Below are positions 5,741-32,195 of a DNA stretch of 48,147 nucleotides, one piece after another. Numbering within the stretch: position 1 is the stretch's first letter; each line of letters begins with the position of its first letter. The notes below the pieces were generated by a model that saw only the letters and a list, made by a program, of their open reading frames with translations, was not told where the DNA came from and did no database searches. Source of the DNA: an uncultured Saprospiraceae bacterium (GTDB lineage: Bacteria; Bacteroidota; Bacteroidia; Chitinophagales; Saprospiraceae); assembly GCA_937923485.1 (NCBI GenBank), contig CALDUE010000133.1, positions 1 to 48,147 on the forward strand, read 5' to 3'. The translations under genes and the position numbers were made by a program.

Positions 5741-6586
5741 CTACTCTGCGACTGCAGCATGGAGGGGAGTTTGAGGTTTTGGCGAAAGCTGATGAGGATC
5801 GCCAATAACGTAATACGCAGCGGTACTTACGAAGTTGCGAACGAAGGGTATAGCACCGAAGAGTTTGAACTGCTTGCGGGCTGCTATCCCAAATTTTAGT
5901 GCATAGATCGGATTGAACATCCAGAGTATCTGTTCGCTGATCTCAAGTTTGTTATCACGCACAATTCTTTCGAAGCGCTCGATGGTAATTTGAGTAGACC
6001 GAACATTTTCGAGTTCGTCCCTGACCACTTTTGGTTCTCCTGCGAGTTTTACCCAACCCCTATAAAGAGGTGGAGGGAGTAAGTGCACCCAAGGAAATTT
6101 ACTCACCATATGAGTTCTGCCTATTTGCTGGTGACCCCCGAAAGGCATCATCCACGGCGGAAACCCAAAAAAGATTTTTCCCCCTGGCGCCAGAAATTCT
6201 GCAAGCCTTGGCACCATTCGCTCTTGATGAGGAATGTGTTCGATGACATCTTTCAAAATAATTGCATCGAATCCTTCGGACGCTAAGTCTTTTGGATCGA
6301 CCTCATAAATGTCGTGATTCAAAATTGAGGCTCGGCCGGCATCGATATGATCCTTAAGAAAAGATCTAGCGAGTTCGGATCGACTAGGGGAAAGTTCAAT
6401 TCCTACGCCATAGTGGCCTTCGTCCACAAAAGCTTTCAGCACTCCTGCTTCAGCACAGCCAACTTCAAGCACTCGCCACGGAGCATCTTTCTTGATATGC
6501 TTCTGGAGTAGAGGAAGCACATACTCCTGTGAAATGCGACGTTGCATCTCGAAGTAGTGACTCTTATTTGTGTGGAATTCGAACAT
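5741..6586 (-). CDS. Class I SAM-dependent methyltransferase, substrate unknown
   Basis: The protein has 281 residues. Motif I of Rossmann-fold methyltransferases is seen at about residues 39-48 (VLEVGCAEAG), an acidic strand end at GIELSP (about 58-63), and the post-motif FDAIILKDVIEHIPH at about 105-118, which places it in the Methyltransf_23/UbiG-like group. The C-terminal third has a hydrophobic stretch that could sit at the membrane. Similar proteins in Bacteroidota are often near glycan or lipid genes, but here the neighbour is the porP-gld operon, 97 bp downstream on the same strand; co-transcription is possible but unproven. The last codons contain one copy of the 14-bp dispersed motif. 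Confidence 0.8.
   Translation of the reverse strand: MFEFHTNKSHYFEMQRRISQEYVLPLLQKHIKKDAPWRVLEVGCAEAGVLKAFVDEGHYGVGIELSPSRSELARSFLKDHIDAGRASILNHDIYEVDPKDLASEGFDAIILKDVIEHIPHQERMVPRLAEFLAPGGKIFFGFPPWMMPFGGHQQIGRTHMVSKFPWVHLLPPPLYRGWVKLAGEPKVVRDELENVRSTQITIERFERIVRDNKLEISEQILWMFNPIYALKFGIAARKQFKLFGAIPFVRNFVSTAAYYVIGDPHQLSPKPQTPLHAAVAE
5776..5789 (+). repeat. 14-bp dispersed motif, exact copy
   Basis: GTTTTGGCGAAAGC on the plus strand, inside the 3' end of the methyltransferase gene, where its complement is read as L-S-P-K. Confidence 0.85.
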
Positions 6587-17429: not shown

Positions 17430-17440
17430 GGATGTCGGAT

Positions 17441-17494
17441 GCCCCGCGCGGAGCGCGTGGGTCCTCGTGTCTTGACCCACTCGACTAGCGGGGC
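17441..17494. repeat. GC-rich hairpin repeat embedded in a heptamer array
   Basis: GCCCCGC (17441-17447) pairs with GCGGGGC (17488-17494), and inside it GTGGGTC (17457-17463) pairs with GACCCAC (17474-17480). The element is flanked by TCGGATG units on both sides (17435-17441 and from 17506). A shorter relative lies inside murE at 31950-31989. Confidence 0.65.
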
Positions 17495-17505
17495 TGCGCA
17501 AGGGA

Positions 17506-17572
17506 TCGGATGTCGGATGTCGGATGTCGGATGTCGGATGTCGGATGTCGGATGTCGGATGTCGGATGTCGG
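17506..17572. repeat. Tandem heptanucleotide array (TCGGATG, 9 copies plus a partial)
   Basis: Nine perfect head-to-tail copies of TCGGATG followed by TCGG, in the convergent gap between the cargo gene and typA. Translated frames across it give simple repeats and are not genes. Confidence 0.97.
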
Positions 17573-17661
17573 AAAATAAAATCTTCAAGTTGGGTTTTGG
17601 ATGGTCTTTCCGTCAAATACTCGACTGCGAAGCGGTCCGAAATCCATATACTGATATCTTC

Positions 17662-30692: not shown

Positions 30693-32195
30693 TCACGAAG
30701 GAGACAAATACTCGTGCAGCACCGCACGATCATCGAAGTCCGAGCGGACCCCGTTAATTTCTTGATAGGTTTCATGTCCTTTCCCAGCGACGAGAATAAC
30801 ATCTTCATCTCGCGCCATACGAACAGCGGTTCGTATCGCTTGTCGACGATCTGGTATTTGCAATACTCGATCGCGTAAATTTTGGGAAATCCCTAATTCA
30901 ATTGCGCTACGAATCGTTGCCGCATCTTCTGTTCGAGGATTATCATCAGTAATGATGACATAGTCACTCATCTTGGCTGCGATCTCTCCCATGAGCGGAC
31001 GCTTCGAGCGATCTCGATCACCACCACATCCGAAAACGGTGAAGAGCTGATGTCCTTGTCTGCGTATTGGTTGAAGCGTTTCGAGTACATTTTTGAGCGC
31101 ATCTGGCGTGTGCGCATAATCGACAAGGCCCGTTAGTTTTTGAGCAGGAACTTCGACAACTTCCAACCTTCCTGCTGCTCCTCTCAGACTGCTCAAAGCC
31201 AACAAAGCATCGGATTCATCTTGCTCTAATTCTACAGCGACACCAAAAGCGGCCAAAAAATTATAGGCATTAAAAGATCCAGCCAAGCGTGTATGCACTT
31301 CAATCTCATTTACCAATAAATGAAGTCCGCGAAGACTATCATCTAAGATGCGACCTTTATAATCTGCGAGTTGACGCAAGGCGTAGGTATGATGTTCAGC
31401 CTTGCAATTTTGAAGCATTACGTTGCCCCGCTTATCGTCAAGGTTGACAAGTGCAAAGGCGGTCTTTGGCAAGCCATCAAAAAGTAGCTTTTTCGCATTT
31501 ATATAACTCTTCATATCACCATGATAATCGAGATGATCGTGAGAAATATTTGTAAATACACCACCAGCAAAGTGACAACCATTAACGCGTCCTTGGACCA
31601 AGGCATGCGAGCTTACCTCCATAAAAACGTAGCCACATCCTGCATCTGCCATCTCTCGCAGGCGGCGTTGCACCGCCACAGCATCTGGAGTAGTATGCGT
31701 AGCTGGTTCTACCCTATCGCCAATTCTAACCTCGACGGTACCGATAAGTCCACAGCGGTATCCGAGTTTGGTGAAGAGATCATAGCATAAGGTGGCCACC
31801 GTGGTTTTTCCATTTGTCCCTGTAATGCCGACCACTTCAAGCTCTTGGCTTGGGTGCTCATAAAAGCTGGCGGCTACTTTGCCAAGCACAGCATTAGTAT
31901 CAGGTGCTTCTATCCAAGCTACATTTGGGCGTTGATGGGTATGGCCAGTCCCGCGCGTAGCGCGAGAATCCTCGCCTTTCTGCGGGGCTTTCGCCAAAAC
32001 AGCCACTGCACCCAACTCGATTGCCTTATCGATATAATCATGTCCATCGACTGTCAAACCGATGGTGGCAACAAATAGGAATCCAGGTTTGATCGCACGA
32101 CTATCAGAGGAGATTCCTACAATAGGGATGTCTGGATCTCCAGCTTTTAGCTGGAGACCCGTGTCGGCCAGGACAATACTTAGTGTAGTGTTCAT
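30693..32195 (-). CDS. murE: MurE, UDP-MurNAc-tripeptide synthetase (meso-diaminopimelate type)
   Basis: The protein has 500 residues. The ATP motif is GTNGKTTVATL (about 124-134). The substrate loop DNPRTED in the C-terminal domain is the pattern of enzymes that add meso-diaminopimelate. GSFNAYNFLAAFG and GKGHETYQ are also present. It adds the third residue of the stem peptide. An extra segment of about 18-20 residues (about 71-90, with GEDSRATRGTGH) lies in the N-terminal domain; its DNA matches a GC-rich repeat seen between genes at 17441, so it looks like an in-frame repeat insertion. Start context is GCACTATG. Confidence 0.95.
   Translation of the reverse strand: MNTTLSIVLADTGLQLKAGDPDIPIVGISSDSRAIKPGFLFVATIGLTVDGHDYIDKAIELGAVAVLAKAPQKGEDSRATRGTGHTHQRPNVAWIEAPDTNAVLGKVAASFYEHPSQELEVVGITGTNGKTTVATLCYDLFTKLGYRCGLIGTVEVRIGDRVEPATHTTPDAVAVQRRLREMADAGCGYVFMEVSSHALVQGRVNGCHFAGGVFTNISHDHLDYHGDMKSYINAKKLLFDGLPKTAFALVNLDDKRGNVMLQNCKAEHHTYALRQLADYKGRILDDSLRGLHLLVNEIEVHTRLAGSFNAYNFLAAFGVAVELEQDESDALLALSSLRGAAGRLEVVEVPAQKLTGLVDYAHTPDALKNVLETLQPIRRQGHQLFTVFGCGGDRDRSKRPLMGEIAAKMSDYVIITDDNPRTEDAATIRSAIELGISQNLRDRVLQIPDRRQAIRTAVRMARDEDVILVAGKGHETYQEINGVRSDFDDRAVLHEYLSPS
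31950..31989. repeat. GC-rich repeat copy inside murE
   Basis: It shares the blocks CCCGCGCG, AGCGCG, TCCTCG and GCGGGGCT, in the same order, with the intergenic element at 17443-17495. It is directly joined to an exact copy of the 14-bp motif (31987-32000). Confidence 0.6.
31987..32000 (-). repeat. 14-bp dispersed motif, exact copy
   Basis: GCTTTCGCCAAAAC on the plus strand; on the murE coding strand it reads V-L-A-K-A. Confidence 0.85.

Follow-up and report, generated by a model that had tools for sequence, protein, structure and literature searches.

To our knowledge, palindromic insertions that are read in-frame within proteins have mainly been described in Rickettsia and Wolbachia. The Rickettsia palindromic elements (RPEs) have a size of around 100-150 bp and are located in-frame in unrelated genes (PMC3767692, PMC10969869). 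Another class of palindromes, the REPs, is typically extragenic and carries a GTAG or CGTC tag (PMC3733652). For the REP transposases, a logic of guide recognition and CT-cleavage has been described (PMC8266576).

Here we describe a GC-rich palindromic unit within murE of an uncultured Saprospiraceae bacterium. The gene lies on a stretch of 48,147 nucleotides that was analyzed as a whole and that is referred to as the window (Table 1). The first-pass annotation took the segment for a dispersed repeat that was inserted in-frame into murE, and this reading is supported by the data. The unit resembles the RPEs and the Wolbachia palindromic elements in that in-frame palindromes are found in unrelated and often essential genes, at exposed regions, and are tolerated by the host protein. 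The differences concern the size (39 nt versus ~100-150 bp), the structure of two bulged hairpins, the GC-rich composition, the fixed 14-bp target and the host (Bacteroidota versus intracellular Alphaproteobacteria). In its behaviour the element thus appears analogous to the RPEs; no kinship in sequence is claimed. Among open-access literature titles there were none on intragenic palindromic elements in Bacteroidota.

Table 1. Position in the window of murE, of the inserted unit and its parts, and of the intergenic relative
Feature	Position	Strand	Description
murE (UDP-N-acetylmuramyl-tripeptide synthetase)	30693..32195	-	500 aa, intact; Pfam Mur_ligase, Mur_ligase_M, Mur_ligase_C
Inserted unit in murE	31949..31987	-	39 nt = 13 codons, two abutting bulged hairpins; ~residues 71-83 = PQKGEDSRATRGT
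Hairpin 1	31969..31987	-	model positions 14-32; 4-nt loop, one bulged base
Hairpin 2	31949..31968	-	model positions 33-52; 3-nt loop, one bulged base
14-mer GTTTTGGCGAAAGC at murE (landing site)	31987..32000	-	encodes VLAKA, ungapped versus relatives
Diverged intergenic relative of the hairpin element	17440..17495	-	extra nested palindrome; flanked by GATGTCGG-type repeats; 29 bits, E 1.6e-6 (murE-free model)

The minus strand of murE from 32000 to 31947 reads GTTTTGGCGAAAGCCCCGCAGAAAGGCGAGGATTCTCGCGCTACGCGCGGGACT. In the alignment, the interval of residues 66-94 comprises 29 residues in this MurE versus 16 in 103 of 109 relatives and 20 at most, and the segment was absent from all 109. This comparison set was composed of 29 genomes belonging to the same family and order and 80 named genomes, mostly Bacteroidota, and the nearest relative shared 57% identity. 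The net gain is 13 residues. The earlier claim that the insertion is in-frame was thus borne out, but the 18-20 added residues that had been inferred are too many, because the VLAKA encoded by the 14-mer, which aligns without gaps to other MurE sequences, had been included. Likewise, the statement that other MurE proteins are shorter is valid for this comparison set, which is mostly Bacteroidota, and not universally, as the MurE of E. coli has a longer loop at the insertion position. A MAG titled Verrucomicrobia (L067) contains a Bacteroidota-like MurE and is possibly mislabelled. The AlphaFold2 model of the protein (mean pLDDT 89.5) has MurE structures as its best structural matches in the PDB. 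Residues 71-90 are positioned between two strands with a pLDDT of 57-58, and by this prediction, of low confidence in the region, the insert would be a flexible loop within the N-terminal domain, which we infer to be tolerated and neutral. No murE was detected in the second available genome of the genus (the congener), so that a close empty site is lacking. The exact edges in murE were inferred from other carrier genes; the definition of the unit itself rests on the 13-aa net gap in the relatives, the 39-nt net gap in VPS10 of the congener, and structure and covariation.

A search with the murE DNA recovered six more places in the genome (the best with 85% over 54 bp, E 5e-11). A covariance model from which the murE copy was left out scored 68.1 bits on murE (E 1.8e-17 in the window), and a chance similarity between the murE segment and the repeat was rejected on this basis. 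As the same model also recovered the intergenic element (Table 1), the likeness of the two goes beyond chance. It had been put forward because of four blocks that murE shares, in unchanged order, with the minus strand of 17441-17495, and these could be confirmed in the sequence. The homology is limited to the hairpin part, however, as the intergenic copy differs in its flanks and contains an additional nested palindrome; it is a genuine but diverged relative of the murE element. The genome contains a family of similar intergenic copies, which are also flanked by GATGTCGG-type repeats. Such a flanked copy represents a sister type and not necessarily the source. Tandem GATGTCGG-type heptamers were found beside the intergenic element (17507-17577), and a degenerate GRGAT-type heptamer array is present at the end of the contig (48052-48140).

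Searching the two genus genomes, both drafts that are 85% complete, yielded dozens of further copies. With these, and with the absence of the segment from the MurE of all 109 relatives, neither of the two refuting conditions named in the first-pass annotation was fulfilled. At E <= 0.5, a covariance model that included murE (R1) matched this genome 109 times and the congener 89 times; these numbers include partial matches and palindromes that were matched on both strands. The model gave no match in 18 further genomes and two marginal matches in one other. A model of the hairpins alone (R3) produced 50 and 34 matches, respectively, with both strands counted; nhmmer matches, many of which covered nothing but the 14-mer or were a single palindrome matched on its two strands, were left out of the counts. 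At least 20 ORFs contain copies, which are found in several reading frames and in either orientation. The carrier products identified by Pfam include acetate kinase, RadC, a class I tRNA synthetase catalytic domain, a LuxR-type response regulator, an exonuclease III-type phosphatase-family domain, a DEAD helicase, an M16 peptidase and others, and one carrier gene possesses a Por_Secre_tail domain. In addition, a peptide profile made from six in-frame copies matched strongly in MurE, Cu-ATPase, VPS10-like, sugar isomerase-like and DUF2064 proteins. One 51-nt copy of the element was recovered with its 12-nt flanks in identical form from each of the two genomes (L260 28-78 and L275, G001:C80 3063-3113); whether this reflects shared ancestry, transfer or cross-contamination is not resolved.

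Six orthologs in the congener lack the hairpins, namely VPS10, the M16 peptidase, the exonuclease III-like gene, acetate kinase, DUF2064 and RadC. In VPS10, 39 nt are missing directly after GTTTTAGCGCAAG, in the M16 peptidase 30 nt, and in acetate kinase and the exonuclease III-like gene about 36-39 nt; the DNA of DUF2064 and RadC aligned poorly around the gap. At the hairpin-free site the 14-mer is intact in VPS10 and DUF2064, intact except for the last base (a T) in the exonuclease III-like gene, and has a single mismatch in acetate kinase; it is disrupted in the M16 peptidase and not clear in RadC. A target duplication was not visible at the carrier sites when compared to the congener orthologs. 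The insert of the isomerase is common to both species. In more distant genomes the insert is absent from MurE, exonuclease III, acetate kinase, Cu-ATPase and the metallo-beta-lactamase-fold protein, and gain of the insert is therefore more likely than loss. Our reading of the aligned sites is that the hairpins entered between the AAG and the C of the 14-mer, which in murE means between G13 and C14, with base 31987 being counted in both the 14-mer and the unit. The first-pass annotation correctly placed the insert next to the 14-bp motif; the motif itself is not part of the inserted DNA but a landing site that predates the insertion.

The two-hairpin structure is well supported by the 22 copies other than murE. 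Overall 89.4% of the cells are paired (89% in hairpin 1 and 90% in hairpin 2), with compensatory changes at two pairs of the former and four pairs of the latter. The number of compensatory cells was 31 versus 9.0 +/- 3.6 in shuffles, none of 500 shuffles scored as high, and all slid versions of the structure scored worse. Could the segments nevertheless be ordinary variable loops, which look like repeats through a GC-rich, low-complexity composition? The length of the MurE loop does vary across bacteria, as the E. coli protein illustrates, yet the score in the leave-one-out model, the six hairpin-free orthologs and the covariation leave practically no room for this explanation. The conserved pairing could also mean that the inserts are functional structures in RNA or DNA, for instance signals for mRNA stability or transcription, which are selected at each site and are not selfish. 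The compensatory changes indeed agree with such a role, but could equally result from selection on transposition substrates. Moreover, the copies are found in both orientations within genes, at unrelated positions and in unrelated functions, those tested are mostly absent from the orthologs, and no Rfam family was matched in the window. We consider a regulatory function very improbable.

The hairpins take up model positions 14-52, which is exactly 39 nt, and none of the six frames of the consensus contains a stop codon. Among the real copies, 3 to 6 of 23 contain a stop in a given frame, versus around 40% of shuffled copies. Given the 13-codon length and the stop-free consensus, the unit could be translated in any frame and in either orientation, so that insertions in surface loops or linkers would survive selection.

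Most coding copies are preceded by the 14-mer. In a census with R3, 58 distinct copies were collected, 31 with a 14-mer head and 27 without. Around three quarters of the former (23/31) are located in ORFs of at least 150 aa versus 3/27 of the latter (Fisher 1.2e-6), and the length is equal modulo 3 to that of the 41-nt model stretch in 23/23 coding headed copies versus 7/27 non-headed ones. Since R3 describes the hairpins alone, the head was not built into this association, although its training copies had themselves been found mainly as headed copies. Furthermore, not every R3 match was fetched, ORFs and not annotated genes were used, and the isomerase site and one further segment were counted in both species, so that not all copies are independent events. 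The occurrence of a repeat within an essential gene that remains unbroken, which was first noted as unusual, is thus real, but for 14-mer-headed copies insertion into a coding sequence that stays unbroken is the usual situation.

The 14-mer, GTTTTRGCGVAAGC, is itself exceptionally abundant, with 910 copies in this genome and 975 in the congener. In 59 other genomes it occurs 0-29 times each, and reversed-pattern controls gave 0 in both genus genomes. Twenty copies are present in the window (e.g. at 5776, 15150, 31987 and 45476). Within 325 kb, a sample that was largely chosen around element copies and whose proportions are only indicative, the motif was encountered in all six frames, with 44 copies in sense, 46 in antisense and 11 outside ORFs. 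In this respect it resembles the DNA uptake sequences of Neisseriaceae and Pasteurellaceae (PMC2346458): around 900 copies of one exact short motif, on both strands and mostly in genes, and it fits the description of hundreds of copies specific for a genus. In contrast to the uptake sequences no uptake bias has been shown for the 14-mer, and its abundance remains unexplained. In the open-access literature we found no paper with the 14-mer and no such motif for Bacteroidota.

A motif that is so abundant, exact in length and present in all frames, like an uptake sequence, offers a way in which the hairpins could have spread without a transposase, i.e. by recombination or template switching between the ~900 copies, for example when replication stalls or in the course of natural transformation. 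A strand with the 14-mer at its end would then pair with another 14-mer and carry the hairpins along, in line with the fact that 23 of 26 coding copies are headed by it. The homology would, however, be one-sided, and the clean 3' ends at VPS10 and acetate kinase require a second joining. There are also intergenic copies that lack the 14-mer, and it is missing from one coding copy in the congener, the hairpin insertion in a glycerol kinase-like ORF (L219 815-859). Spread by recombination therefore seems unlikely to us, though less so than the two explanations discussed above.

The interpretation that we favour, and in which we have considerable confidence, is that of a non-autonomous palindromic mobile element of 39 nt that was inserted into murE within a pre-existing 14-bp motif. 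It builds on the family of copies, the covarying pairing, the in-frame coding copies, the hairpin-free orthologous sites and the strong association between coding copies and the 14-mer, all of which are shown by the data. According to this proposal, the two-hairpin unit would enter the 14-mer without a visible target duplication, and would move, as we infer, as folded single-stranded DNA. The probable mover, likewise inferred, would be a Y1 transposase, either REP-associated or IS200-like. This last step is plausible and not shown, and we consider the case for it about evenly balanced. Single-strand transposition by a Y1 enzyme would explain why the insertion lies beside a fixed 5' motif and why no target duplication is visible, and this combination, together with the bulged hairpins and the AAAG and CY described below, would fit the transposition of REP and IS200/IS605 elements (PMC8266576). 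Both genomes contain Y1 transposase genes, several of which have inverted flanking repeats (Y1-like genes of this kind were seen at L194 1-1400, L193, L192 and L295), which suggests several REP-type systems in the genus. One weak Y1 gene is flanked by inverted repeats that contain a 22-nt module matching the element (21/22 upstream and 19/22 downstream). The link is weak, as the flanks of most Y1 genes consist of other repeat sequences and the module is found at only 1 of 5 Y1 loci in the genome; an element-specific transposase could not be identified among the Y1 genes of both genomes.

Like the REPs and REPINs (PMC3116915, PMC8266576), the element consists of short bulged hairpins, is present in at least tens of copies, and has a short motif on its 5' side and a CT-like 3' end; in both cases the genomes also encode Y1 transposases, with inverted repeats flanking the genes. 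The hairpins are preceded by AAAG in 16 of 22 copies and followed by CY in 16 of 22, which would be compatible with the guide and CT-cleavage logic of REP transposases (PMC8266576). Of the features that define a REP, the imperfect palindrome at high copy number is thus present (two covarying hairpins, with the R3 matches given above). Two others are not: the position of the GTAG/CGTC tag is taken by the AAAG within the 14-mer, and most headed copies (the 23 of 31 mentioned) reside inside genes and not outside. On these two grounds the element is not a classical REP, and that identity was rejected. With the RPE type the element agrees in the in-frame palindrome in several unrelated genes (at least 20 ORFs, many with a product that Pfam identifies, and in-frame lengths in 23/23) and in the insert-free orthologs (six, in the congener), but not in the family length of 100-150 bp, the unit being 39 nt by alignment.

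A more far-reaching view is that a genus-wide system exists, in which ~900 exact 14-bp motifs serve as landing sites for a frame-preserving 39-nt element that repeatedly adds a 13-residue peptide to proteins in a bacterium not belonging to the Rickettsiales; this we put forward only tentatively, and it may well not hold. The element in murE represents a second case of in-frame palindromic insertion, in Bacteroidota, with insert-free orthologs in a congener, an exact 13-codon unit and a defined landing motif. As such it makes the choice of sites by these elements, and their effects on proteins, directly testable.
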